Of a stretch of DNA of 56,163 nt, positions 13,423 through 28,767 are shown in pieces (position 1 is the first letter of the stretch; the number at the start of each line of letters is the position of its first letter). Source of the DNA: Sphaerisporangium rufum (GTDB lineage Bacteria > Actinomycetota > Actinomycetes > Streptosporangiales > Streptosporangiaceae); the NCBI RefSeq assembly GCF_016863395.1, contig NZ_BOOU01000096.1, positions 1-56,163 on the forward strand, given 5' to 3'. Under the pieces are notes generated by a model. That model was not told the origin of the DNA. It did not search any database and worked only from the letters and a program-made list of their open reading frames with translations. The translations under genes were made by a program, and so were the position numbers.

Positions 13423-13495
13423 GCCTCCGTAGCTCAGGGGATAGAGCACCGCTCTCCTAAAGCGGGTGCCGCAGGTTCGAATCCTGCCGGGGGCA
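13423..13495 (+). tRNA. tRNA-Arg (anticodon CCU)
   Basis: 73-nt cloverleaf. Acceptor arm GCCTCCG pairs with CGGGGGC, discriminator A at 13495, and no CCA is encoded. The D-arm GCTCAGGGGATAGAGC, the anticodon stem CCGCT/AGCGG with loop CTCCTAA (anticodon CCT in DNA), and the T-arm GCAGGTTCGAATCCTGC are all intact. It marks the left border of the foreign island, a classic integration spot. Confidence 0.97.
13450..13471 (+). repeat. 22-bp direct repeat, left copy (inside tRNA-Arg)
   Basis: The segment covering the tRNA anticodon stem-loop and the start of the variable region is repeated exactly at 25268-25289. Identity stops abruptly on both sides. It could be the core of an attachment site. 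Confidence 0.6.
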
Positions 13496-13520
13496 CTCAT
13501 GTGATGTCTCAAGACATCGG

Positions 13521-14802: not shown

Positions 14803-15321
14803 TGGGTTTCCTATGTCCTGAACCAGCACACTGCCGGGGGCACCGACCAACCAGCCCAAACCCGTCCACTACCAGGGCCCTTTCCCGCTGGTTCTTTTCG
14901 ATCTTGAGCAGCCATAGTCCACTGTGTGCAGCCCTATGTCAGCCGTCGCGGGATATACGCGGGATGGCGGCCCACCCGTTTGCCCAGCTCAGCCCTGCGC
15001 AAAGAAAGAACCCCGAGCTGACCCGGGGTCCGCAGCACAGCGAGTTTGATCAACCTTCGAGTGCGTCACCGATCTTTGCGATTGGCGGGAAGCTGCTGCC
15101 CCTTCACGCACTTGGCGTAGACCGTAACAGGACGTCATCACCGTAACCGGCGCGCTTGACCACCTCGGTAGCCGCCGGCCCCGGCGTCGAGCCACAGCGA
15201 CACCGCCGCGTGCCGCTGGTCATAGGAGCGTACGGCCAAGCCTCTCCCAGTTCGGTCTCCACGCTACGAGGGAAGGTCAGAAGCGCTGCGCTGGTATCGA
15301 TGGACTACGGGTCAAGCTGGT
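14803..15321. other. Gene-free stretch between the IS and the ssp operon
   Basis: No reading frame with family features on either strand. It contains an extra IS-end-like copy at 14805-14825 and a terminator-like hairpin at 15010-15029. It may be the scar of a lost island gene. Confidence 0.5.
15010..15029 (-). terminator. Hairpin with U-tract on the minus strand
   Basis: ACCCCG and CGGGGT flank an 8-nt loop. On the minus strand the hairpin is followed by TCTTTCTTTG, a U-rich run. It would stop minus-strand transcription that reads through beyond sspD. Confidence 0.55.
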
Positions 15322-15371
15322 GTGACCTCTCGCTCCCCTCCCTGGCATAAGGGTGGAGAGCGAGAGGTCAC
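15322..15371 (-). terminator. Long hairpin just after sspD
   Basis: GTGACCTCTCGCTC (15322-15335) and its exact inverse (15358-15371) make a 14-bp perfect stem around a 22-nt loop, 6 bp beyond the sspD stop. There is no U-tract, so it may act as a transcript-end stabiliser or a bidirectional stop for the ssp operon. Confidence 0.6.
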
Positions 15372-15377
15372 AGTGCC

Positions 15378-16214
15378 TCAGAGGTGACAGACAGCGCATC
15401 CGACCTGGTCGTCATCCTCATCGTGGGCGTCGGAGAGGATCTCGAGAAGGGGGCGATTCGGCTTGCGACGTCGAGCAGCCCGTTCCATCGCGTCGCGGTG
15501 CTTGGCCTCAATCTCTTGGCGTCGGGCGATGAGCTCATCGAGCGACTCGCCCTGCGACCAGGTGTACTTGCGCCCCTTCATGGCTGTCTGCTGGTAATTG
15601 ACCTTCTCCTCGTAGGCGACGGCCTTCTCGAACAGCTCCGGATGGCGGTCCTTAAGCCCAACCCACTCATGCTTACGTTGGAAGAAGCAGAAGTAGCAGC
15701 CCGAACGGGTACGCCATTCATAGTAGGCTGGCAGGCCGATACCGGCCTCGTCGAGTATCCGGTCGACCCCGGTCCTGTCGATGCCGTCTTCACGGAAGGG
15801 GAAGACGGCGGTGATGTTGGGCTTGGTGCTGACGTAGCCGAGGCGGTTCTCATCCGCACGGATGGCTACGTAGGAGATGACCTCATCATCGCCAACCCAA
15901 GCCTCCAGCGGCTTGATCTTGAGGTTCTTGGTGCACCAACGCATCTGAGGGCTTGGAAGGGTCCCCTGGTACACCTCGAGCCAGTGATCGAAATCGCGAT
16001 TGGAGTTGAGCCGCTCGATCGGCTTGCCAAGCGCAGCTTCCAGCCGATTGAGGTACTCGTAGGTCTCGGGAAGCTCGGCGCCGGTATCGCAGAAGAAGTA
16101 CTCCATCTCGGGGACCCAGTCCCGCATGTAGATGGCCAGGGCTGAGGAGTCCTTCCCTCCAGAGATGCCCAGCACGTGCCGAGTCCCTCTGCCAGAGTCG
16201 TTGGCCTTGGTCAC
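15378..16214 (-). CDS. sspD: SspD: PAPS-reductase-like ATP pyrophosphatase of DNA phosphorothioation
   Basis: 278 residues. The PP-loop SGGKDSSALA is at 18-27, followed by EYFFCDTGAELPETYEYL and MRWCTKNLKIKPLE, as in DndC/SspD proteins that adenylylate DNA and pass on sulfur. Cys residues suited to an Fe-S cluster or sulfur relay include SGCYFCFFQRK and the terminal GCAVCHL. The GTG start overlaps the sspC stop (GTGA). It is the last gene of a four-gene ssp operon with a strong hairpin 6 bp beyond. DndC is longer and sits with DndD/E, which are absent, so SspD is the better name. Confidence 0.88.
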   Translation of the reverse strand: MTKANDSGRGTRHVLGISGGKDSSALAIYMRDWVPEMEYFFCDTGAELPETYEYLNRLEAALGKPIERLNSNRDFDHWLEVYQGTLPSPQMRWCTKNLKIKPLEAWVGDDEVISYVAIRADENRLGYVSTKPNITAVFPFREDGIDRTGVDRILDEAGIGLPAYYEWRTRSGCYFCFFQRKHEWVGLKDRHPELFEKAVAYEEKVNYQQTAMKGRKYTWSQGESLDELIARRQEIEAKHRDAMERAARRRKPNRPLLEILSDAHDEDDDQVGCAVCHL

Positions 16215-19200
16215 AGCTTCTCCTCCCTCTGGGGGTCGTGGCCAGAGTCCGTCGCGGTGAGACGCTCGGCTAGGGCGGCAAGCAAGATGCGCGCACCGCC
16301 AGGCCCTAGCTCTTGCTCAGCTTGCCTAATGACACCGACAACCAGAGTCTCGGCAGTGTTCCTGACCTTCTTAGGCACATGGATGAGCGTGCGTACTTCT
16401 GTTCCTTGAGGTGTGGTGAGTGTCAGCAGGTGAGTGTCGATCTGCTTGGGTTCGGGCGCACGAGTCTGAGGTGCTGGTACCTCCTGCACCTGGTAGAGGT
16501 GGCCGACACGGTCAAGGCGGCGGGCCACCTCTTTGACACGCAGGTAGAAGCCGTCGGCGTCCTGGTCGGTCCAGTCGCCGAGCGCCTTGTTCGTGAGGCG
16601 AATGATGATCGGGTCGAGCCAGTCCTCATTCGGCAGGCTGGTGTTGAGGACACGAGACACGAACCCTTGCAAATCAAGCTCAAGGCTTGCGTCTGCGAAG
16701 CCGCTGAGTGCCTCTGCTAGCCCTGGCCGCAGTTGGGGAAGGTCACCGGCGATACCGAACGCCTGACCTATCGCGGCTACGACGTCTCGCCTCAGTGCTG
16801 TGCTTGCTCCGGAGATAGCGTCCAGGGCGTTGATCACCCGAGCGACGTACGAGCCGGCGGCCTGCTCGTCTTTAGTCGCGTTGGCAGGAATGGCATTCAG
16901 TGCAAGTGCCTGTGGCAGGGCAGTGAATACCAGTTGGTCGGGGTCGGTTGCCTCGAAGAGGACTTTTCGGACCTGCAGCGCTTCCGGAGTGAGGCGCTTG
17001 GTGTAGCGCGCGTAGGGAGTAAGAACCATGACGCGCTCGAGCATGGCCCGAGTCACTGCCAGCAGCGCCGGGTTGCGGGCGGTACGAGAACGAGGAGCAT
17101 CCACATTGAGAGCCGCAGCGAGGCGCTCAACAACCAAGCTGCGCTGTCCTTCCCCGATCGGTACGGCCTTGACCGTGAATCGGTTGGGCCCTGTATCAGC
17201 AAGCAGGCGCTCAATGATCTCCGGGGTGAGCCGCGGACAATAGTTTCCCTCTTCGAACAGCGCGACGTCGGAGCTACGGAGAATCAGCGCAGCGACCATC
17301 AGGATCGGGACAACGCCAGCCTTGACGCCGAAGGGCGGCGCCATCAGCTGCTCATAGATGTCGACAATCGGGGTGGGCTGAGCGGCATCGGTGAGTGCCT
17401 GCTCTAGGCGCTCCCAGGTAGGGGTGACCTCCGGATGCTTCTTCGGATCCGGCCGGGAGACACCGTGGGTGGCAATGGTTTGGGCCTGTATCGCCTGGCC
17501 GACCTCCTTGGCAGCACGGTGCAGGCCCAGGTACTCCACGACACCGTGGTACATGGCCCGTTCCTGCGAGTACTTAGTGGTGTCATATCCCAGCAGCGCC
17601 AGCCCCGTATTAGTCACCAAGTCGGACAGAAGCACACGTCGTGCACGCGCTCCGTTGCTGGTGAGTTCATGACGGCCGGCCATCTCGTTGCGGATGTGCG
17701 GTGTCTGCGGATACACCCGGTCGCAGGCAGCCGACACCAACGCACCGTAGCTGCGGGCCTCGATGGGCTCACTCCGTTCGAAATGTGTGTCCTGCCCGCT
17801 TTGCCAGAGGTGCCAGGAGGAATCGTCGCTCTGCGGGTTGAATGCCTCGTCTAGCTGAGTTCCCAGCTCTTGCGAAATTCCCGCGATGCGCTCCTCGATC
17901 TCGCGTCCCGCCACGAGATCGATGTCATCCTGGTGTCGGAGGTCCTCGAGGGCCCTGAGGGTGATCCCTGCATTGAGGATGGCGGCAGGGTCTTTCGTGG
18001 TTCCGATAAGTACGGGCAATGGAGAGTTGACCAGCGGCCGCGTACCGGGCTCTCCAAGATGGAAGATGATCATACCGTCGGCCGCGTCACTCACGACGCC
18101 AGGGCCTTCGAGTTTGTCGGCCTGGAGACTGATAGCGGTGCGGAAGTACCGCAACATCCCGGTGCGTTGCATGTGCGCTCCAGCGACCACCTCCTTGGGC
18201 AGAACCGTTCCGAGGTGCTCGCCAAGGTGGTCGACGACATGGCTAGGAGCGACGTGGCCGGCGATTTCCTTGACCCGGGCATCAATATCGATGTTGGTTC
18301 CCTGCCAGACCCGGTACTCATCGCTATAGGACCGGTGGGTGAGGAACCCGGTTTCGACGAGGTGTTGCAGCCGCTGCTGCAGCATCTCAAACCGCTCAGG
18401 ATCCGCAGCGTTGCTCGGATCGTTCATAGCGAGCTGGATCATCGCCGGGGTTGCCCGAAGAACGCCGTCGACATCGATAAGGTTCAGAATGCCGATCGTC
18501 TTGAGGATGTCTCGGTCCTCGGGGGGAAGCCCGTGGGCTTCGTTGAGCCGGTTGTCGACCTCCAGCCAGCGGCTGGCGTTGGACGAGGCCAGGATGGTGG
18601 TGCGACCGGAAGCGAAGAAATAGTCATAAAGCTGGGGCAGCAGAATGGTGGAGGCCCGCTCCGGCTCGGAGCTTGAGGCTTCATCGATGGTACGGCGGAC
18701 CGTGTAGGGCTCGTCGTTGGTGAGGAACCCGACGAGGCTGCGGTCATGCTGACCGATCTGGAAGGCCAGGAGCGGTGCCGCCACGGCGGTAAGGGGATGC
18801 AAGGGATAGAGGCCGGCGAACATCTCCGGGGAGATGTGAACCACAGAATCGAGGCCGTGCTCGACCCAGGCTTGGGCGGCCGCTTCCGCCTGCCTGCGGA
18901 TGAGCTGCTGACCAGCTTCAGCGACGCCGGACTGATCGAGACGTCTTTGCAGAAGGTGAACGGCATCGCCAAGATTCGGCGTGAAGGTGATGTCTTCGAA
19001 TCGACCTTGGACCTTGGCCCATTCCTTGGTCTGGATCAGGCTAGATCGTGCTGCATAGTCGCTGAAGGCCAGGTGCTGCAGGGTGAAGATGAACAGCGGA
19101 AGTCCCGACCGCCCCGCGCCCTTCTCGGCGAGCATCTGCAGCAGAAATACATCGTTCTCGGCGCTGCCAGAGTCGCCCGAGGCGGCAAGGTATTCCAGTG

Positions 19201-19828
19201 ACTTACCGAACTCATCAAGAATCAGCAAAACCGGGTGGCCTGTCTCACACAATGCGGTGAGCGCGTCCAGAAGGCTCTCGGTTGTCGGAATTTCACGCTC
19301 TGCGCAGGCACGGAGGGCTTGTGCCACGTCCTCCGGCGGCCGTTTCCCCCACCTGCGTTCCACGGCGGCAGCCAGTGCTCGATACACAGTGGCGGCCAAG
19401 GGTTCACGGCGCGCGGTCGCCACGGCACCTAGGAACCCCTTCTCGGCACGTTCGTCACGTGCCTGCTCCATGCGTGCAGCGAGTCCTGGGCTCGTAGCCT
19501 CCACGGCTTGCCGAGCTTCGTCCTGCCGCTCCGGGTCATGGCCTAAGAAGGCGTCAAGCAGGTTCGATAGTGTCGACTTTCCTGAGCCGTAAGGACCGGT
19601 GAAGGACCATGCACGTGTTCGCTTGAGGTCTGCCATTGCGTTGGCAACACGATTCAGAACGTCCAGTGCCCTGGCCCCCACATAGGGAGAGTTCAAGTGT
19701 GGGTCGCGGACGTCGCGCTCGAGGTTGGTGGAACGTAGTTCCGACCCAACCAGCGTGACGCCGGCAGGAAGCTGAGCGCTGGCGCGGTCCTTACGAAGGC
19801 TATGAAGGGGGTTGGTGGCCATGGTCAC
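16211..19828 (-). CDS. sspC: SspC: large P-loop ATPase of the Ssp phosphorothioation system
   Basis: 1205 residues. Walker A GPYGSGKST at 78-86; a Walker B-like VLLILDEFGKSLEYLA about 200 residues in, followed by ENDVFLLQMLAEKG. No other domain is recognised by eye in the long C-terminal region, which fits SspC, the DNA-binding ATPase that couples with SspB and SspD. The start could be GTG at 19828, overlapping the sspB stop, or ATG at 19822; GAGGAG lies upstream. Part of the same operon. Assignment relies on neighbours (DUF4007 gene, PAPS-reductase-like gene, cysteine desulfurase) as well as on size and motif positions. Confidence 0.85.
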   Translation of the reverse strand: MTMATNPLHSLRKDRASAQLPAGVTLVGSELRSTNLERDVRDPHLNSPYVGARALDVLNRVANAMADLKRTRAWSFTGPYGSGKSTLSNLLDAFLGHDPERQDEARQAVEATSPGLAARMEQARDERAEKGFLGAVATARREPLAATVYRALAAAVERRWGKRPPEDVAQALRACAEREIPTTESLLDALTALCETGHPVLLILDEFGKSLEYLAASGDSGSAENDVFLLQMLAEKGAGRSGLPLFIFTLQHLAFSDYAARSSLIQTKEWAKVQGRFEDITFTPNLGDAVHLLQRRLDQSGVAEAGQQLIRRQAEAAAQAWVEHGLDSVVHISPEMFAGLYPLHPLTAVAAPLLAFQIGQHDRSLVGFLTNDEPYTVRRTIDEASSSEPERASTILLPQLYDYFFASGRTTILASSNASRWLEVDNRLNEAHGLPPEDRDILKTIGILNLIDVDGVLRATPAMIQLAMNDPSNAADPERFEMLQQRLQHLVETGFLTHRSYSDEYRVWQGTNIDIDARVKEIAGHVAPSHVVDHLGEHLGTVLPKEVVAGAHMQRTGMLRYFRTAISLQADKLEGPGVVSDAADGMIIFHLGEPGTRPLVNSPLPVLIGTTKDPAAILNAGITLRALEDLRHQDDIDLVAGREIEERIAGISQELGTQLDEAFNPQSDDSSWHLWQSGQDTHFERSEPIEARSYGALVSAACDRVYPQTPHIRNEMAGRHELTSNGARARRVLLSDLVTNTGLALLGYDTTKYSQERAMYHGVVEYLGLHRAAKEVGQAIQAQTIATHGVSRPDPKKHPEVTPTWERLEQALTDAAQPTPIVDIYEQLMAPPFGVKAGVVPILMVAALILRSSDVALFEEGNYCPRLTPEIIERLLADTGPNRFTVKAVPIGEGQRSLVVERLAAALNVDAPRSRTARNPALLAVTRAMLERVMVLTPYARYTKRLTPEALQVRKVLFEATDPDQLVFTALPQALALNAIPANATKDEQAAGSYVARVINALDAISGASTALRRDVVAAIGQAFGIAGDLPQLRPGLAEALSGFADASLELDLQGFVSRVLNTSLPNEDWLDPIIIRLTNKALGDWTDQDADGFYLRVKEVARRLDRVGHLYQVQEVPAPQTRAPEPKQIDTHLLTLTTPQGTEVRTLIHVPKKVRNTAETLVVGVIRQAEQELGPGGARILLAALAERLTATDSGHDPQREEKL

Positions 19829-20949
19829 ACCTGCTCCTCGGTCAATTCCAGAACTATGGGCTGCTCAGACTGCTGTTCGCGTTTGCGGCCCTTGCTGGCG
19901 TGCTCCAGACCGGGGTAGCGCTGTTTCCACTCCTCAGGGGTCGGAAGGTCGGCTTGGCGGCGGATGTTCCCATAATGCCGATCCAGGATGTCCCAGGCCA
20001 ACTGCTGAGGATCTACGGCAAAGGACAGGCTCCGCTGGCCCAGCGAGTCAGTGATCTGTAGATCATCCTGTTCCGCGACGAGCGGTTCTATGACCTTGAT
20101 GAGCTCGGGCTCTCGCATGCGGAAGGCTCGACCGGGAGCACCTGGCTCGTTGGCAAGCCGGGCCAGAGAGATGGAGTTGCCGCCAGTGACGTGCGAGGCG
20201 TAGTCAAGGCATGCGTAGAGCAGCACCGCTGCTGGAAGATTGACCCGAGACCGGGTGGTGAACCGCCAGACGCGGCTCTTGCCCTTGCCTTGACCTTCCA
20301 GCAAGCCGAGCTCCCGGAAGGGACTCATCAGCTGATCTTCAAAGCTGCCCTGCGACTGCGGATTGGGCTCCAGGTCTAGGGCGTACATCTTGATGAGGCA
20401 GTCCACATCTCGCTTGATCGACTCTGCGGCCGGCATAGCGTTCTCGGGATAGCTTTCGTGTACATGCCGGGTGATCAGAGTGACCATCTCTGCGGTTGTG
20501 ACCTTGGAGAACGGCGCCAGGTGGAACATCACGTACCAGCTGGGCACCATGCACTTGGCTCCGTGCTCCCCGTATTCACTGGACAGCAGCCACCAATGCA
20601 GCAACCACAGACTTCCAGTGTCTTCCAAGTAAGGGTCCGCGCCGTTCTTACCGAGCAGCCACTCCGCCCTCCAGGTCGGAGAGGCGATGTAGGCTCGGTT
20701 GGAAGGGTCCCGATGTGGGTGTTCTCGAGTGAGCTTGAATGCCTGCGACCAGAAGCGGATGGCGTTCACCATGTTCCGGCCGACGCCCAGCAGCACAGGC
20801 GCGTTCTCTCGGTGGAAAATGTCGCTGCCGCCCTCGCCATCTCGAACAACCTCGGTGTGGGCTTTATAGAGCCAGCCATAGCGAGGAGCGAAGGTTTCGT
20901 GCCGGGCGAATCTCGGCTCTGTCGCTTCTACTAGCCGGCTGTCGGTCAT
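19825..20949 (-). CDS. sspB: SspB: DUF4007-domain DNA nicking protein
   Basis: 374 residues. The N-terminal region is the DUF4007 domain (RFARHETFAPRYGWLYKAHTE, ENAPVLLGVGRNMVNAIRFW, AEWLLGKNGADPYLEDTGSLW, LHWWLL). SspB is known to nick DNA so that sulfur can be placed in one strand. The C-terminal half has helical stretches (LDRHYGNIRRQADLPTPEEWKQ) without a motif I can name. The ATG at 20949 follows the sspA stop by 57 bp; the stop overlaps sspC by four bases, indicating tight coupling. Confidence 0.88.
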   Translation of the reverse strand: MTDSRLVEATEPRFARHETFAPRYGWLYKAHTEVVRDGEGGSDIFHRENAPVLLGVGRNMVNAIRFWSQAFKLTREHPHRDPSNRAYIASPTWRAEWLLGKNGADPYLEDTGSLWLLHWWLLSSEYGEHGAKCMVPSWYVMFHLAPFSKVTTAEMVTLITRHVHESYPENAMPAAESIKRDVDCLIKMYALDLEPNPQSQGSFEDQLMSPFRELGLLEGQGKGKSRVWRFTTRSRVNLPAAVLLYACLDYASHVTGGNSISLARLANEPGAPGRAFRMREPELIKVIEPLVAEQDDLQITDSLGQRSLSFAVDPQQLAWDILDRHYGNIRRQADLPTPEEWKQRYPGLEHASKGRKREQQSEQPIVLELTEEQV

Positions 20950-21006
20950 GCGTGGAGACCTTTCAATCAGTCAAAATGGAGCTCGGTCATGCTTGAGGGC
21001 CGACGG

Positions 21007-22182
21007 TTATGGCTCTGCGGTAGCCGCCATGGCTGTTCGAACCTCTTTAACCGCGAGAACAGTGGCTTCTATGGCTTGTTTGATTTCGTGCTCCGTGGTG
21101 GCGTAACCCAAGGAGAAACGCACAGTAGAGTCAGCGTCCTGTCGGCTGAGCCCCATCGCCAGTAACACATGGCTTGGGCTGGGTGCGCCGGAGGCACAGG
21201 CGCTGCCGTTCGAGGCAGCAATCTCTGGCATCGCGGCCAAAAGTGCGTCGGCTGGCAGCCCGGGGAAGGTAACATTCGTAACACCAGGCAGCCGTGGCGA
21301 CCTAGCGCCGTTGATATAGCAGTCGGGCAGACGCGAAGTCAATCCATCCTCGAGCACATAACGTAGAGACGCGACACGAGCGGATTCGTTATGCAGCTGC
21401 ATTTGTGCAGCCTTGGCAGCGGCCCCCAGTCCTGCGATGCCCGGAACATTCAGCGTTCCTGCACGCCAGCCACGCTCCTGACCACCTCCGATTAGGAGAG
21501 GGCGGTAAGGCATCGACGTTCCGCGACGAACGAACAGGGCGCCGACACCCTGTGGGCCTCCGAACTTATGACCGGACAACGATAGGAGGTCAACGTCAAG
21601 TTCATTCAGGTCTAGCGGGAGCCGACCGACATACTGTGTGGCATCGGTGTGAACCAGCGCCCCTGCCTCACGTGCCAGTCCGATGATGGGATCCATGTTG
21701 GTCAGAACCCCAGTCTCGTTGTTGGCCAACATTGCCGAGACAAGCGACACCTTGCCCTGACGAATCGCCACCTCCAGAGGCGTCAGGTTGACCACGCCGT
21801 CCCGGTCCACGGGCAGCTCGACCAAACTACCGCGACCGTCCGTAGTAATGGCGCGCGCTGCCTCACGGATCGCCGGATGTTCAACAGCAGTGGTTGCGAG
21901 GGTCTCTCCGACCGAATAGCCCGCATGGAGCGCGAGATTGTTCGCCTCGGTGGCCCCGGAGGTGAAAATTAACTCGCCGGGCGCACAGGCGAGCAGGTGA
22001 GCAACCTGTTGACGTGCTAGATCGACACGAGCGGCCGCATCACGGCCTGCTGTATGGATGCTAGAAGCGTTGCCGACGCTTCGCAGAGTGTCCAACATCA
22101 CTTCGAGCGCCTCTGGACGTAGAGGGGAAGTGGCGTTGTAGTCCAGATACACCACATCCGCACGATTGGCCTCAGCCGACAT
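21007..22182 (-). CDS. sspA: SspA: cysteine desulfurase of the phosphorothioation system
   Basis: 391 residues of the NifS/IscS class, PLP-dependent. VVYLDYNATSPLRPEALEVM at the N-terminus, FTSGATEANNLALH, NNETGVLTNM, HTDATQYVGRLPLDL, the PLP lysine in LSGHKFGGPQGVGALFVRRG, and the catalytic Cys in SNGSACASGAPSPSHVL. It supplies sulfur for the backbone modification (known for SspA/DndA). The ATG at 22182 is favoured by GGAG 7 nt upstream over a TTG four codons earlier. First gene of the ssp operon; a 394-bp spacer separates it from the DndB-like gene, so it may have its own promoter. Confidence 0.92.
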   Translation of the reverse strand: MSAEANRADVVYLDYNATSPLRPEALEVMLDTLRSVGNASSIHTAGRDAAARVDLARQQVAHLLACAPGELIFTSGATEANNLALHAGYSVGETLATTAVEHPAIREAARAITTDGRGSLVELPVDRDGVVNLTPLEVAIRQGKVSLVSAMLANNETGVLTNMDPIIGLAREAGALVHTDATQYVGRLPLDLNELDVDLLSLSGHKFGGPQGVGALFVRRGTSMPYRPLLIGGGQERGWRAGTLNVPGIAGLGAAAKAAQMQLHNESARVASLRYVLEDGLTSRLPDCYINGARSPRLPGVTNVTFPGLPADALLAAMPEIAASNGSACASGAPSPSHVLLAMGLSRQDADSTVRFSLGYATTEHEIKQAIEATVLAVKEVRTAMAATAEP

Positions 22183-22576
22183 ATTCAGCTCCAAGTGCCG
22201 CCTCGCTTCCCCAAGGCACTCCTGGAGGGTTCTGTCGCCTCGACCTCTTCTCTCGCCAGGAGTGCACTGAGATCCTAGCGAACCCTCTCCGTTGCGGATG
22301 GCTTCGTGCGTAACAAAACGCCTCTTACCGAGGAGGGCTTGTCAACAGAACGTCAACACTCGTGACTGTGAGCAACGTAGCGGCTGCATCGCTGAACAAG
22401 CGTGCAGATCTGCCCTCGCAGCACTGGCCGACCCAAGAGGGGGCAAGCCGATCGAAAAGTGCAACCAGGACTGCAAGGTAGATCCTTGGATGAATTACGC
22501 TAGAGCGCGCATTCGTAGTGTATCTACATGGCCAGATGAACCAGCGTTTCATCTGGCCATCAGACCGGAGGGATTA
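22183..22576. other. Spacer between the DndB-like gene and sspA
   Basis: 394 bp without a gene. It holds a perfect 12-bp stem at 22529-22559 beyond the DndB-like stop and must contain any separate sspA promoter. It is more AT-rich than the chromosome to the left, as is the flanking DndB-like gene. Confidence 0.6.
22529..22559 (-). terminator. Perfect 12-bp hairpin after the DndB-like gene
   Basis: TGGCCAGATGAA (22529-22540) and TTCATCTGGCCA (22548-22559) pair around a 7-nt loop, 17 bp beyond the stop codon of the DndB-like gene. No clear U-tract follows on the minus strand. It could end the GIY-YIG/DndB-like transcript or be a protein-binding palindrome in front of sspA. Confidence 0.55.
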
Positions 22577-23905
22577 TCAATTATTTTCCTCAGCCGCCAT
22601 CGATGACGCCACAGGGGAAATAATAATTCCATCTACGAGATCGTCGATAGGAACCGGATACCTTTTGCCTTTAACGGAACGATATGATCTGATTGCCCTC
22701 TCGATCTGCGCTTTCGATTTAGGCGCGACATGAGCAGAAAGTAGTTCTAGCAGCAGATCGGATATATCCTTGCCCGTAGCCATCTTACCCGTCGCTCTTT
22801 CGCCGGGGGTTTCATTCCAGGCGGCCACGAACGGGGCTGCACCCATTCTCCAGTCCAGCATGGAGAGTCTTTGGAATCCTTCGTCCCAATCGATAGTACC
22901 TTGCTCAATCGCGTGCCGAAGCGTCTTAACAACAGCAGTTTGGACGATAGGCCTCATGAAGGGGTGGCCATCGTGCTCATGCCCCTTAGGCGTCCTGAGC
23001 TCTTTAGGAGATGCTGCACCGAGGTAAAGCCGGCGCAGCTCGCCACAAGAATCTAAGAGGCTTTCCATGCGCTCCGAAAGGATCTCGTAGCTTTCATCCA
23101 GCACTTCATCGGTGGCACGCACTGACACTTTATGCATGCTGCCGTCTAGATCGAACCCGAGCTCTCGTAGTATGTCATAGAGAACTCCGATCGTTGTCCA
23201 CGCCGACTGCCCAACGGGCACCTGTCGAGTCGCTAGCTTAAGTTCCCCTTCGGTTCCTTGTTTGCTAAATACTTGCACAACCCCCTGCTTGGAGATGAAC
23301 TCGTGATCATCTAGGAAGCGACGGGTCAGGATGGCGAAACCGTCATCTTCGTCTAGGGCGATATTCTCTTGCTTATTTGTTGTTACAGCGTTCTTGTTGA
23401 TATTCGTGAAAAGGCGACGCGTCTTCCTTCTTCCTTCTTCGCTATCGAAGTGGGGAACGACCACCACGCCAATATCTTCGCTACCTAGATCAGGCTTCCT
23501 CTTGATCGCATCTTTAATTGCTCGGAGGCGATGTTGCCCGTCGAGCGCAAAGAATTGGTGCGTCCCATCAAAGGTGAGTACGCCGAACTCCCTGTCTACC
23601 CCCGCAAGCATCCCTTGTTCCGCGGATTCTTCCATGGTGAGGGGAATGTACTCAGGATGCCCTCCCCATGCCGCTACAACAAGTGACCCTAGGAAGCGAT
23701 GAGGATTCGTGAGGAGGTACTCGGTGATCTCAGCCGTGCGGGCACCCACGCCACGCTGAATCATTGTGCCAAGGTCCTTGTTTCCGCCGAGCTCGTATGC
23801 AAACTGCACCTCCCGCGCGACCTGGGCATAACTCATAAGGCATAGGTAGTACTCCCATTCGCCTACTCTAGCCTTAAACGCAGGCACGAAAGTCTTAGTT
23901 GGCAT
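22577..23905 (-). CDS. DndB-like DGQHR-domain protein
   Basis: 442 residues. Carries the family motif FALDGQHRLRAIKDA (DGQHR at 122-126) and FTNINKNAVTTNKQE (about 166-180), both typical of DndB/DGQHR proteins. DndB is known as a negative regulator of dnd modification genes; other DGQHR proteins have unknown or putative nuclease/ParB-like roles. The start is ATG at 23905 with AAGGAGAG upstream; a longer frame to 23992 is rejected. It lies 22 bp behind the GIY-YIG gene and upstream of sspA, all on one strand. Base composition is clearly AT-richer than the flanks. A DndB-type protein next to Ssp rather than Dnd genes is unusual. Confidence 0.8.
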   Translation of the reverse strand: MPTKTFVPAFKARVGEWEYYLCLMSYAQVAREVQFAYELGGNKDLGTMIQRGVGARTAEITEYLLTNPHRFLGSLVVAAWGGHPEYIPLTMEESAEQGMLAGVDREFGVLTFDGTHQFFALDGQHRLRAIKDAIKRKPDLGSEDIGVVVVPHFDSEEGRRKTRRLFTNINKNAVTTNKQENIALDEDDGFAILTRRFLDDHEFISKQGVVQVFSKQGTEGELKLATRQVPVGQSAWTTIGVLYDILRELGFDLDGSMHKVSVRATDEVLDESYEILSERMESLLDSCGELRRLYLGAASPKELRTPKGHEHDGHPFMRPIVQTAVVKTLRHAIEQGTIDWDEGFQRLSMLDWRMGAAPFVAAWNETPGERATGKMATGKDISDLLLELLSAHVAPKSKAQIERAIRSYRSVKGKRYPVPIDDLVDGIIISPVASSMAAEENN

Positions 23906-23927
23906 GACACTCTCCTTTTTTAGCAGC

Positions 23928-24554
23928 TTAGGAGCCAACGTCGAATGCTGGCTTAGGAGGCTGCGGACGCAGCTTCGGGCCTTGGCTAACATTCAGAGGC
24001 GGATTGATAAGCTTGATTAAACGATCTTCGAGCAGTGTTATCCTTTTTTGATCTTCCATTGGCGTGAACCAGTATTCGAGGGGGCGAAGTGGAAGATATC
24101 GGGCAAGAAGTCCGTCTCTCTTAGTAGGGACCGTTCCATCGCTCCATATGTCTTCAGGGTCACCATTTAGGTATTTCCGATATCCTTTATACCTTCCTCG
24201 GAGCGTTCCTGAAGAATACTTATCACCTCCAGCTTGACCTATATATAGGGTAAAGCACGGCCCTTCGCGGTTGCCATCTCTAGCTAGCTTGAATGTGAAT
24301 GGTGGTCGCCAGACGAACATGTACAAACCCGGCATGTCCGGCAAGGTCTCTGCAAGCTGATCCGTGGCCGTCCTCACTTCCCATGGTCCTGCGAATCTTT
24401 GCAGGTCTTGTTCCAGGCTCTGGCAGTGTGCTCGATCCAGCAGACGGAGTAAGCCCAGGTCGAGTCGCAGACTCGGGCTGGGGACGTCTCCATACCGCCT
24501 AACCAATGACCCGAAGGGGTCCGATATGCCGTTTCTTGGCGATTTGTCCTGCAT
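23928..24554 (-). CDS. GIY-YIG nuclease-domain protein
   Basis: 208 residues. Residues 75-190 show a GIY-YIG fold: PGLYMFVW (GIY position) at 75-82, LYIGQAGG (YIG position) at 103-110, LRGRYKGYRKYL with the catalytic Arg at about 121, and LLEDRLIKLINPPLN with the metal-binding Glu at about 176 and the late Asn. The N-terminal 70 residues are a helical extension without a known name. First gene of the pair with the DndB-like protein. It may cut DNA that lacks, or carries, the Ssp sulfur mark (inference). No strong ribosome-binding site lies right before the ATG, so a slightly different start is possible. Confidence 0.78.
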   Translation of the reverse strand: MQDKSPRNGISDPFGSLVRRYGDVPSPSLRLDLGLLRLLDRAHCQSLEQDLQRFAGPWEVRTATDQLAETLPDMPGLYMFVWRPPFTFKLARDGNREGPCFTLYIGQAGGDKYSSGTLRGRYKGYRKYLNGDPEDIWSDGTVPTKRDGLLARYLPLRPLEYWFTPMEDQKRITLLEDRLIKLINPPLNVSQGPKLRPQPPKPAFDVGS

Positions 24555-25366: not shown

Positions 25367-26563
25367 TTACGCTTGGTCCTCGGAAGATGCTGCGAGCCGG
25401 TCGACCAATGTGGCTACGGCGATTGCAAGGTCAGTGGACTCCTGGTTGAGATCGAGGACATGCAGGTGGACCCTGATATCCGAGTTGTTGATTCGGTATG
25501 GCTCCGCCGGCGGCGTGCCAGCAGCGTAGACAAGGTGCCCCTCGGTGAGGCCGAGGGCAGTGCAGTACGAGATCATCTGAAATAGATGCGCTGTCGGCGG
25601 CGTACCATCCAGGTTCCGATACTTCGCGTCTACCACCACGATCGGCCGGCCGTCGCGGTAGATGAGGATGTCAGGCTGGAAGCGTGCCCGCTTCTGCTGA
25701 TCGAGCCGGTGCCCTTGCTGAGAGACGCAGCGGAGACTGTGCTGCGGAAGCGCTGTGGTTAGTCGCCGAGTGAGGAAGCGCTCGAAGATCTGTGCCATGT
25801 TCAGGATGAATCCGTCGATCTGTATCGCCTGTGATCCCTCCGGCTGTAGAGAGGCCCCGGCAAGGATAAGTTCGGCCAGCTGGAGTGCGGGGACATAGCG
25901 CTCGTTGAGCTGGGTATGCCACCACGGCGGCAGCAGTGCACCTGGCCGGATGGGGGTAACGCCGACAAGTCGTCCCGCCAGGTGACGCAGCAACGCGACT
26001 GTGGTGCCCGCGACCCCGGGCAGGGCCTGAGCGAGGTCGATCGCGCCTAGCAGTATCCGGTTCTCGGGAATGTCCGTCAGGTAGTCGTCGTAGGCAACCT
26101 CGATCGCAGTTGGCAACCCCATCCGGCGGCTCAGCTGAGCGCTGGTCCGGATTCGGCCTCGCAGGACGGGGAGAGCATCCTCGCGATAGACGTAACCGTG
26201 CAAAACACCACCGCGAAGAACCCGCTCTGCCGCGCGAGCGAACACGGTGACCAGTGCGGCCACGAACAGGTCGTCGGTAGCGGCTGAGATCTGGCGGTGT
26301 TGCCAGATGTCGTCGTAGTCACCGAGCAGGCTGAAGATTCGCCGGACGGGCAGTTTCGGCTGAATGCGTAGCTCAACGGCACCGTCGTTGCGGCCAAGCC
26401 GTATGGTCCCAACGCGCTGGCGTCCCGCGAGCCGCCACCGCCCGCCCGCGGTCGGGTTGATGGTGACCAAGTCGGGAACGGTGGCCAGCGTGACAACCTG
26501 CGCTGGAGTCAGGGACCGGGACGGGCCGGCGGTGGCCTCGGCTAGGTGAAGACGCAGGGTCAC
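25367..26563 (-). CDS. mcrC: McrC-type nuclease subunit of type IV restriction
   Basis: 398 residues. McrC partners the GTPase McrB and supplies DNA cleavage. The N-terminal part has a beta-rich region (VGTIRLGRNDGAVELRIQPKLP), the middle is helical, and the C-terminal PD-(D/E)xK core reads FQPDILIYRDGRPIVVVDAKYR with the following YCTALGLTEGHLVYAA. Its start codon overlaps the mcrB stop by four bases, so the two are co-translated. Codon composition is intermediate between the island and the chromosome. Confidence 0.88.
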   Translation of the reverse strand: MTLRLHLAEATAGPSRSLTPAQVVTLATVPDLVTINPTAGGRWRLAGRQRVGTIRLGRNDGAVELRIQPKLPVRRIFSLLGDYDDIWQHRQISAATDDLFVAALVTVFARAAERVLRGGVLHGYVYREDALPVLRGRIRTSAQLSRRMGLPTAIEVAYDDYLTDIPENRILLGAIDLAQALPGVAGTTVALLRHLAGRLVGVTPIRPGALLPPWWHTQLNERYVPALQLAELILAGASLQPEGSQAIQIDGFILNMAQIFERFLTRRLTTALPQHSLRCVSQQGHRLDQQKRARFQPDILIYRDGRPIVVVDAKYRNLDGTPPTAHLFQMISYCTALGLTEGHLVYAAGTPPAEPYRINNSDIRVHLHVLDLNQESTDLAIAVATLVDRLAASSEDQA

Positions 26564-28767
26564 GGCAAAGTGTGGCCGAGCGCGGCAAGTAGGACCGGCA
26601 GGCCATAATCGGCCTCGATGTCATCGACTTTGCCATAGAGCTGGTCTTCCAGCAGGGGCAGGATCTCCCCTTTCCAGATGAGTTCCAGTCCGCGCCGGGT
26701 GGCCACGTTGGGGGTCATCAGGTAAGAGGGACCGACGGCGCGATCCGGATCGTTCAGGCGGCGGTTGACCTCTTCCAGCAGAAGCGCGGGCAGGACGGGA
26801 AGTTTCTCGCGTTCCAGCCAGCGGCGTAGCAGCCCGTCGACCGGGGCTCGATCTGGGGCCAGGGAACGGAAGACGAATCGACGGCGCATGGCAGCGTCGA
26901 TCAATGCCACCGAGCGGTCGACGGTGTTCATCGTGCCGATGACGAGAACGTTCTTGGGCAGCTTGAACGGGTCGTCCGGCGAGTACTGCAGAGTGATCTC
27001 GCGGTTGCGGTATTCCAGCAAGAAGTACAACTCGCCGAACACCTTGGCCAGATTAGCGCGGTTGATCTCGTCGATGAGCAGCACGTACGGCCGCTCCGGC
27101 TCCTTCTCGGCGGCCTCCACGGCGTTCTTGAACGGGCCGGGCACCAGGTCGAAGCCGACCATGCCATTCTCACCGAGCCGAGGGCGGAAGCCTTCGACGA
27201 AGTCCTCGTACCCGTAGGAAGGGTGAAACTGCACCAGGCTTGTGCGATCGGGGCCGGCCAGCTCCTCTCCGAGCTTGGTGGCCAAGTAGGTCTTGCCTGT
27301 ACCGGGTGGGCCGTAGAGGATCATCTGTCGTTTGGCGGTCAGCAAGTCGGCGGTCTCCTGCAACCAGGGAAGTGGCATGAGCAGGTCGTCGGCGAACCTC
27401 TGGGGAAGTACTGGGACGATCAGGCTGCGGGTCTCGTCCTGGGCCAGCACCTCGTCGGTGAGCTTTTCCTCCAGCCCGGCACTGGTCGCTAGTGCCGCCA
27501 TCACACTGGTCAGCTCGCCGATCGTCATCGCGGTCTTGAGTTTGGCCTGGACTTCCTCAGGGAGGGTCCGACGGCTCATCGCGTTCGGGTTCCACTCGAC
27601 CGAGCGGCGGCGAGCCAGGCCACGGCCAGCGGAAAGGTCGTAGTAAGCATCGCTGGTGATGGTGCCGACATAGATGGCATCACCGTCGACGGTTGCGATG
27701 AGATCACCGGGCTGGAAGACGCTGAGAAAACGCCACAGCTGCCCGGCCGTGACGTCCTTACTGTTTCGGTTGGCGTCAGGAAGACCTGTAGCGACAGCCT
27801 CCTTAATCTGCTGGCGGGACGCACCGGCCGGAAGCTGATCAATTTCGCAAAAGCTTACCGAGCAAAAACCTTCGGCCAGCCACTGGGTGATCGCATTGAC
27901 ACCGTCGACGTTCGCCCCGCGCACCAGCCAGCCCTTCTGCGGCCGCCGTGGCTCCCATCGAGACCTCCAGGGCTCGTCATAGAAGCTGAACCGTCCGTGT
28001 TCTGCTTCTATCCGCCGGCGAATGGTGCACAGGTCGCGATCTAGATCCTCCGACGGCTCGGCCAGCAGATCGGCAAAGGCATCCCGGATCAGCCGCTTGG
28101 CATTCTCGACCGAGACCGGGAGGAACACGTCAGGGAACAGTAAGAACAGCAGCACGTGGAACTGGGCACGAGCCCGTGACTTGCCGTCGTAGTCCGGAAT
28201 CACCGATTCGGCCAGATCTCGGAAGCGCCACGGATCTCGTAGAGCCGATTCGCGTTCGCCATACGGTAGCTTCACTAAAAGGCGCGTGAGGCGGATGAGG
28301 AACGCGAACTGGGCCCAGCGGTAGTTGAGGAACGCCTGGCCCCCCTTCAGATAACCCGGTGAGGCCGCCGCAGCCAACTCGTCGGGTACCTTCACCTCGA
28401 AGGATGCCCATGACAGCACTCTGTTCAAGATCTCGAGCTTGCGATTGACGCCGATTGTGGCCAAGCTCAGCGGCATGACGTTGAGATAGAGCAGCTCGGC
28501 GGCAAGCACGATCGCCTCGTTGCCACCTTCGGCGATCTGCCGGTTGAGCTTGACCAGGAACTCGTCAGGCGACCCGTCGAAGTTCTCTACGAACCGACGG
28601 AAAAGCTCGTCTGCGGCACCCGGTGTCCAGGTGCGTAAGCCGGGAACAAACGATGATTCACCGGTCAGAACGCCGCCTTCGACCACCTTACGCGCCGCGC
28701 GACATACGATCATGCCCTCGTCCCAGCCCACTGCAGATCCTTCCTCGTACATCTCCGGTGACTCCAC
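26560..28767 (-). CDS. mcrB: McrB-type AAA+ GTPase with EVE/PUA-like reader segment
   Basis: 735 residues. Residues 1 to about 270 are alpha-helical without a named domain. About 275-400 contain GWLVRGANVDGVNAITQWL, ...GDLIATVDGDAIYVGTITSD and RRRSVEWNPNA, a pattern like the EVE/PUA folds that read modified bases. The C-terminal AAA+ part has Walker A YGPPGTGKTYLA (about 484-495), PSYGYEDFVEGFRP, Walker B VLLIDEINRANLAKVFGE and the sensor GTMNTVDRSVALIDAAMRRRF, as in McrB. GTG at 28767 is used; an ATG five codons later is possible. Which modification it reads cannot be told from sequence. Confidence 0.88.
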   Translation of the reverse strand: MESPEMYEEGSAVGWDEGMIVCRAARKVVEGGVLTGESSFVPGLRTWTPGAADELFRRFVENFDGSPDEFLVKLNRQIAEGGNEAIVLAAELLYLNVMPLSLATIGVNRKLEILNRVLSWASFEVKVPDELAAAASPGYLKGGQAFLNYRWAQFAFLIRLTRLLVKLPYGERESALRDPWRFRDLAESVIPDYDGKSRARAQFHVLLFLLFPDVFLPVSVENAKRLIRDAFADLLAEPSEDLDRDLCTIRRRIEAEHGRFSFYDEPWRSRWEPRRPQKGWLVRGANVDGVNAITQWLAEGFCSVSFCEIDQLPAGASRQQIKEAVATGLPDANRNSKDVTAGQLWRFLSVFQPGDLIATVDGDAIYVGTITSDAYYDLSAGRGLARRRSVEWNPNAMSRRTLPEEVQAKLKTAMTIGELTSVMAALATSAGLEEKLTDEVLAQDETRSLIVPVLPQRFADDLLMPLPWLQETADLLTAKRQMILYGPPGTGKTYLATKLGEELAGPDRTSLVQFHPSYGYEDFVEGFRPRLGENGMVGFDLVPGPFKNAVEAAEKEPERPYVLLIDEINRANLAKVFGELYFLLEYRNREITLQYSPDDPFKLPKNVLVIGTMNTVDRSVALIDAAMRRRFVFRSLAPDRAPVDGLLRRWLEREKLPVLPALLLEEVNRRLNDPDRAVGPSYLMTPNVATRRGLELIWKGEILPLLEDQLYGKVDDIEADYGLPVLLAALGHTLP

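Follow-up and report, generated by a model that had tools for sequence, protein, structure and literature searches.

Introduction

Phosphorothioate (PT) systems are modular, and it is for only a few of their effectors that the part which reads the mark is known. The closest described relatives of the locus considered here are those built on SspABCD, a four-gene core for single-strand PT modification at 5′-CCA-3′ that occurs with the effector SspE or with SspFGH. SspE, as portrayed in PMC9646914, senses PT through a DGQQR domain, has a GTPase that is stimulated by PT DNA, and controls an HNH nickase, and the two effectors are reported to be compatible and additive in their effects (PMC8092258). 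In Dnd neighbourhoods, URI (GIY-YIG) nucleases have been described at the edges of the loci (Rakesh et al. 2024, PMC10853773), so the mere presence of a GIY-YIG gene close to a PT operon has precedent. A further point of comparison is offered by the GmrSD type IV enzymes, which, according to PMC4619093, combine DUF262 with a nuclease, sometimes as two genes; the same source describes the GmrS/DUF262 and DGQHR domains as related and sharing the motifs QR, DGQ[HQ]R and FxxxN.

Here we analyse a locus in a stretch of 56,163 nucleotides, hereafter the window, which is one whole contig of its genome (Sphaerisporangium rufum, NZ_BOOU01000096.1). On its minus strand, in the direction of transcription, lie an mcrB-like gene, an mcrC-like gene, a GIY-YIG-like nuclease gene (hereafter GIY), a gene for a DGQHR protein, and then sspA, sspB, sspC and sspD. 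The locus shares the modification core with both Ssp systems, and in SspE, as in the GIY-DGQHR pair, a domain bearing the QR and DGQxR motifs is combined with a nuclease; the pair differs in consisting of two genes, in having DGQHR rather than DGQQR, and in having a GIY-YIG-like rather than an HNH/DUF1524 nuclease. The fusion of DUF262 to DUF1524 that defines SspE was not found, PF03235 scoring below its cut-off and PF07510 not being listed for either gene of the pair, and the same absence of DUF262 above cut-off and of a listed DUF1524 sets the pair apart from GmrSD. Unlike the nucleases of Rakesh et al., which likewise include a GIY-YIG enzyme near a PT operon but belong to Dnd neighbourhoods, the pair is a fixed arrangement found in Ssp loci, and the available text of PMC10853773 does not mention it. 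No description of the pair was found in the open-access literature.

A gene pair linked to phosphorothioation operons

The original prediction, made from the sequence alone, proposed a complete sspABCD operon in the order A-B-C-D on the minus strand (15378-22194), and PADLOC profiles identify all four genes in that order with matches of near full length: sspA, a cysteine desulfurase (21007-22194; SspA, 422 bits), whose start is most likely the ATG at 22182; sspB, the DUF4007 protein (19825-20949; PF13182, 296 bits; SspB, 365 bits); sspC, a BrxC-like P-loop ATPase (16211-19828; SspC, 1275 bits); and sspD, a PAPS-reductase-like sulfurtransferase (15378-16214; PF01507; SspD, 400 bits). Four base pairs (bp) overlap at sspB/sspC and again at sspC/sspD, and sspA is spaced 57 bp from sspB. 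The prediction had also coupled DUF4007 with SspC, a wording to be corrected, as DUF4007 (PF13182) is SspB. Its placement of a GIY-YIG gene followed by a DGQHR gene 5′ of sspABCD on the same strand was borne out (23928-24554 and 22577-23905, respectively), with a gap of about 380 bp between the DGQHR gene and sspA.

The pair is a real, PT-linked module. We recognised it in 13 distinct loci (the window, L003, L004, L005, L006, L007, L084, L089, L090, L011, L012, L013 and L049), which span Actinomycetota, Alphaproteobacteria and one Salmonella element. In every one of the 13, GIY lies immediately 5′ of the DGQHR gene on the same strand, with a gap of -4 to +31 bp in the 12 loci measured (22 bp in the window and 14 bp in L089 by the start codons read), and in every one a PT operon stands beside the pair, Ssp in 11 loci and Dnd in two (L013 and L049). 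The commonest arrangement, sspABCD-GIY-DGQHR in one direction, was found in six loci (L004, L006, L084, L089, L090 and L011). The 13 loci were found by way of the DGQHR protein, and GIY without DGQHR was sought in the 345 genomes of the window's order and, with a Rhizobium GIY query, in plasmids. The prediction was staked on the pair not being common far from ssp genes, and on this point it survives so far, all the loci examined lying beside a PT operon.

Relatives were gathered from several collections. A scan of 84,980 genomes for the DGQHR protein that made no reference to Ssp, and that relied on six exact 8-residue patterns and so finds close relatives only, returned five relatives of 64-77% identity, each directly preceded by GIY and having ssp genes, in varied arrangements, no more than 10 kb away. 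In a plasmid collection, 22 records match the DGQHR protein, and the best five of them have a small "hypothetical" gene related to GIY directly upstream; four of the 22 records were opened, most of the rest being annotated dndB, and three of the best five are near-identical Rhizobium plasmids that we count as one locus (L012). Sampling of the phylum added L089 and L090, sampling of the order added L084, and a Salmonella record added L049. A phage collection gave three records for the DGQHR protein, namely the Salmonella one and two unannotated faecal ones, and three scans of viral_contigs found no relative. In L049 (8321-12508), the pair lies beside dndBCDE in a Salmonella integrating conjugative element, and its DGQHR gene seems to run across two frames.

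The linkage can be counted within the window's order, where DUF4007 occurs in 16 of 345 genomes, DGQHR matches above 600 bits in three, and GIY matches above 190 bits in the same three; all three fall within the 16 DUF4007 genomes (hypergeometric 8e-5, with kinship ignored). Another 24 genomes have a DGQHR match, at about 160-180 bits in four of them (L085-L088) and below 60 bits in the rest, and there are three GIY matches of 20-30 bits, all in longer frames. No GIY match was found in the eight weaker DGQHR regions that were fetched from the order and phylum (L085-L088 and L091-L094); five of them (L087 and L091-L094) carry dnd genes, and L085, L086 and L088 have no PT gene in the stretch read.

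The DGQHR protein and the question of regulation

The DGQHR gene most likely starts at the ATG at 23905-23903, which stands behind the sequence aaggag and 22 bp after the GIY stop; the open reading frame list places the start at 23992, and the profile scans used the frame 22580-23992. The protein matches PF14072 at 86.6 bits (cut-off 29.1) and the TIGR03187 DGQHR model at 83.2 bits (cut-off 58.85), and all three of the motifs shared with DUF262, QR (49-50), DGQHR (121-125) and the F165/N169 of FxxxN, are invariant in the nine DGQHR proteins of the pair that were aligned. PHROGs gave two weak matches (E 0.007 and 0.03), and a sequence search of the PDB with the DGQHR profile gave nothing at E 1.

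DndB of DndABCDE belongs to the same superfamily (PF14072, TIGR03187), and we considered and rejected the DGQHR protein as a DndB ortholog: it scores 69.9 bits against the DndB equivalog model TIGR03233, far below the cut-off of 328, and a tree of 24 proteins separates the 12 included from the pair, by a branch with support of 89/81 (below the strict mark), from eight DndB proteins (100/100) and four unpaired relatives (100/99). The L049 protein was left out of this tree, in which two long branches, those of the unpaired group and of DndB, meet. The suggestion that a DndB had moved over from Dnd also fails, as the DGQHR proteins of the pair form a group of their own and each of the two Dnd loci that carry the pair has a dndB besides, so that the two proteins co-occur in one locus.

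A second reading nevertheless starts from this kinship, and casts the DGQHR protein as a DndB-like repressor by which ssp transcription is tuned, with GIY as a control partner or an incidental neighbour. DndB is its closest characterised relative and is reported to repress by binding palindromes in the dnd promoter (PMC4507180), and an inverted repeat is indeed present in the sspA leader. This repeat, GCACTCCTGG-N30-CCAGGAGTGC (22216-22265), lies 5′ of sspA inside the conserved ssp cassette and is a candidate operator; it is perfect, its two arms of 10 lying 30 bases apart, and was matched in none of 100 shuffles. Of 27 loci scanned, 22 include an sspA leader; in 12 the core, CTCCTGG-N30-CCAGGAG, stands 5′ of sspA, and its spacer is 30 in every case. 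Those 12 comprise four loci with the pair (the window; L003, 3276-3325; L006, 1257-1306; L007, 18431-18480) and eight without it (L117, 11880-11929; L118, 11936-11985; L119, 12164-12213; L120, 8162-8211; L121, 8446-8495; L122, 11931-11980; L125, 7770-7819; L126, 12090-12139). There are near matches in L123 and L124, the core is absent on scan from L004, L084, L089, L090, L011, L015, L016 and L116, and the 30-bp spacer sequences differ between most loci. Because loci that lack the pair have the repeat too, the repeat does not depend on the pair, and something else should read it. The separate dndB genes and the separate grouping also count against a repressor, as does the occurrence of the ssp cassette with other upstream neighbours, and the nuclease partner present in 13 of 13 loci would be left unexplained; we regard regulation as unlikely. 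The arms of the repeat contain 5′-CCA-3′, the reported target of SspABCD, which leaves room for the PT state perhaps to feed back on ssp transcription.

The GIY-YIG-like protein

GIY encodes a protein of 208 residues that has no match in the initial Pfam, PADLOC and NCBIfam scans. PF20815 (GIY_YIG_2) matches nine of the 13 family members, with a best E of 1.7e-4, and W58, P72, G76, Y78, F80, Y104, G106, G109, R121, Y125, E176 and P185 are invariant across all 13. Among these are G76, Y78, Y104, G106, R121 and E176, at the positions where an active GIY-YIG nuclease is expected to have its GIY and YIG motifs and its catalytic Arg and Glu, and their invariance argues for an active enzyme. PHROGs returned no match for the protein, and a sequence search of the PDB with the GIY profile returned nothing at E 1.

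A candidate swappable position and the company of other effectors

The ssp DNA of the window is 88-90% identical to that of its nearest relatives, three loci without the pair (L119, L121 and L122), from 15330-15378 to 22285-22291, such that the similarity takes in the cassette beginning at the sspD end and breaks off about 100 bp upstream of sspA. Where the window has its DGQHR and GIY genes, upstream of sspA on the same strand, L119 and L121 carry PbeC/PbeA-like genes and L122 HATPase/helicase genes, 1.1-2.1 kb from sspA. Here, then, is a case in which the pair occupies a slot 5′ of a conserved ssp cassette where neighbours are swapped, and such near-identical cassettes with different upstream modules amount to natural swap experiments. 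Across the order, the 11 full sspABCD loci that lack the pair comprise seven with helicase–HATPase, two with PbeA and PbeC, one with PbeC only, and an eleventh that shows no more than a HATPase fragment where the stretch ends; the remaining two of the 13 pairless DUF4007 loci have no recognisable ssp partners.

The original prediction placed the pair in the stead of the known effectors, and this holds locally and fails in general. As it had stated, the window has no SspE or SspFGH, none being found by tblastn with one SspE and with the SspF, SspG and SspH of L012, and the pair is the only PT-linked effector candidate found in the window. Seven of the 11 Ssp loci with the pair, however, carry other effectors or modules. 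L004 encodes SspE (1018 bits), which runs in the same direction and is separated from the pair by sspABCD; L012 has SspF, SspG and SspH after the pair; L005, L007, L084 and L011 have a helicase, a HATPase and a PLD-like gene; and L003 has PbeA-like and PbeC-like genes between ssp and the pair. A general replacement of SspE and SspFGH is rejected on the evidence of L004 and L012, in which these share a locus with the pair. No such partner was found within the stretches fetched for the other four loci (the window, L006, L089 and L090), of which L006 starts 1.3 kb before sspA and L090 ends with its contig 0.3 kb after the DGQHR gene, so that effectors could be missed; for L084, L089 and L090, SspE and SspH were sought in the flanks only. 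The genome-wide searches covered SspE and SspH, with one of several PADLOC models each. In the window's genome, the one SspE model gave no full-length match and two short ones (44 and 27 bits) in one protein, the one SspH model gave seven matches, all confined to its FtsK-like part, and one HATPase query gave no full match. The protein with the two short matches is an 847-residue GmrSD-like open frame that lies outside the window (G000 contig C10, about 69600-71129).

Since SspE and SspFGH are additive, co-occurrence is no argument against an effector role, and the stacking of a further effector is plausible; the pair more likely adds a cutting step to defence than replaces known cutters.

Two side observations concern the genes that accompany these operons. 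A helicase with a HATPase recurs beside sspABCD (L116, L120 and L122-L126; L005/L132, L007/L134, L084/L136 and L011), the best NCBIfam match of the helicase being RadD, below its cut-off, and a PLD-like gene, sought only in the pair loci, is present in L011, L132, L134 and L136; the helicase and HATPase may form an additional Ssp effector. TIGR04096, "DNA phosphorothioation-associated putative methyltransferase", occurs in two Ssp loci that carry the pair, L005 (5241-6740) and L090 (9334-10974).

Proposed function and competing readings

The reading that we prefer to its rivals, although we hold it at somewhat less than an even chance, is that the pair makes up a PT-linked nuclease of two genes that acts as SspE would if it were split, with a ParB/Srx switch and a nuclease. 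SspABCD would put phosphorothioates on the cell's own DNA, as is known for the family and as full-length homology suggests here, and the GIY and DGQHR genes would form an accessory module that travels with PT-marking operons. The DGQHR protein, assigned to the ParB/Srx superfamily and with a predicted nucleoside triphosphate (NTP)-binding motif, may read the PT mark or its absence and act as an NTP-driven switch, and the GIY protein may then nick or cut DNA that fails the test. From sequence and gene order we infer the nuclease activity, the sensing of NTP and PT, the formation of a complex and the restriction of phage by the pair. A broader form of the proposal, on which we are more tentative still, would make the pair a further class of PT-dependent effector, in which a DGQHR (ParB/Srx) subunit senses PT and gates a GIY-YIG cutter as a swappable plug-in for Ssp and Dnd, alone or stacked. 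Beside two kinds of PT operon and several effectors, the pair is a compact candidate for a reader and cutter: if it restricts phage, the design of SspE, a ParB/Srx switch plus nuclease, also exists in split form and with another nuclease fold, and if it does not, it still marks an unrecognised step in PT biology.

A number of results weigh against a split effector, beginning with the proteins themselves. In profile comparison the DGQHR family matches DndB with a probability of 99.1%, far above any similarity to SspE or DUF262: against six DUF262 domains only the DGQ[HQ]RL motif was aligned (14.6%), and against the SspE N-terminus alone nothing sensible was aligned (1.6%). The DGQHR protein of the window reaches only E 0.035 and 14.7 bits with PF03235 (DUF262; cut-off 33.2), and because our own profile comparison aligns only the central motif at low probability, the kinship with DUF262 rests mostly on PMC4619093. 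The GIY protein of the window reaches only 13 bits with PF20815 (E 0.1; cut-off 22.4), comparison with E. coli UvrC aligns only the Glu/Asn stretch (probability 8%), and the structure model is poor (mean pLDDT 43.6), with an order of strands and helices that fits the one expected for the fold; given the weak profile match, the UvrC comparison and the poor model, the GIY-YIG fold is not confirmed.

The distribution of the genes weighs on the same side. The DGQHR subfamily of L085-L088, from the same order, lacks GIY, and three of the four regions read lack a PT operon, so the DGQHR domain as such does not imply PT. The pair is also missing from the majority of Ssp loci. Thirteen of the 16 DUF4007 loci of the order, 11 of them with full sspABCD, do without the pair; in a sample of the class, DUF4007 occurs in three of 394 genomes, with the pair in the window and without it in L015 and L016; and only four of the 68 plasmid records with an SspD match (E 1e-20) have the pair by GIY search, three of these being near-identical.

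The scarcity of the pair bears as well on the possibility that it belongs to the modification or repair side, with GIY nicking DNA for sulfur insertion by SspB, SspC and SspD, or removing PT or damaged PT sites, under the control of DGQHR. The order sspABCD-GIY-DGQHR in six loci does put the pair last, behind the modification genes, and the effectors found with the pair vary, as they would if it were an accessory to modification. SspB itself, however, is reported as a nickase needed for modification (PMC8092258), the 13 loci without the pair include the 88-90% identical cassettes, which suggests that the pair is probably not needed for marking, and the pair is found with Dnd too, whose choice of targets is different. 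We think such a role improbable.

A similarly low probability attaches to a back-up suicide effector, a standalone nuclease that DGQHR would restrain and that would be set free on failure or blockage of the PT system. For Dnd neighbourhoods, standalone nucleases, with the URI (GIY-YIG) enzymes among those at the edges, have been proposed as suicide effectors (PMC10853773), and the tight coupling of the two genes fits. So does base composition, which is as in add-on modules: the GC content of the DGQHR gene is lower than that of all four ssp genes in eight of the eight loci measured (the window, L004, L006, L007, L084, L089, L090 and L011), and that of GIY in six of the eight. The tie to PT operons, on the other hand, suits a PT-reading enzyme, as the split SspE-like nuclease would be, at least as well.

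Neighbouring features of the window

Between the DGQHR gene and sspA, 16 bp after the DGQHR stop, lies a perfect 13-nucleotide inverted repeat with a 7-nucleotide loop (22528-22560), a candidate for the end of the pair transcript, with no T run. Upstream of the pair on the same strand are the mcrC-like gene (25367-26563; PF10117, 161 bits) and the mcrB-like gene (26560-28767; McrB model PRK11331, 145 bits, below its cut-off). The middle part of the McrB-like protein matches PADLOC PDC-S02. The two genes (25367-28767) are probably a separate restriction system; McrBC as part of the module was rejected, no relative being present among the fetched open reading frames of the other 12 pair loci. 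The 812-bp gap between the mcrC-like gene and GIY has no similar DNA among the fetched loci.

An Rfam scan of the window returned tRNA only. The last 13 bases of a tRNA-Arg(CCT) gene (13423-13496) recur at 14831-14843, 1.3 kb downstream, and between the two copies lie two overlapping frames that look transposase-like by eye; the repeated tRNA end is possibly the edge of an island.

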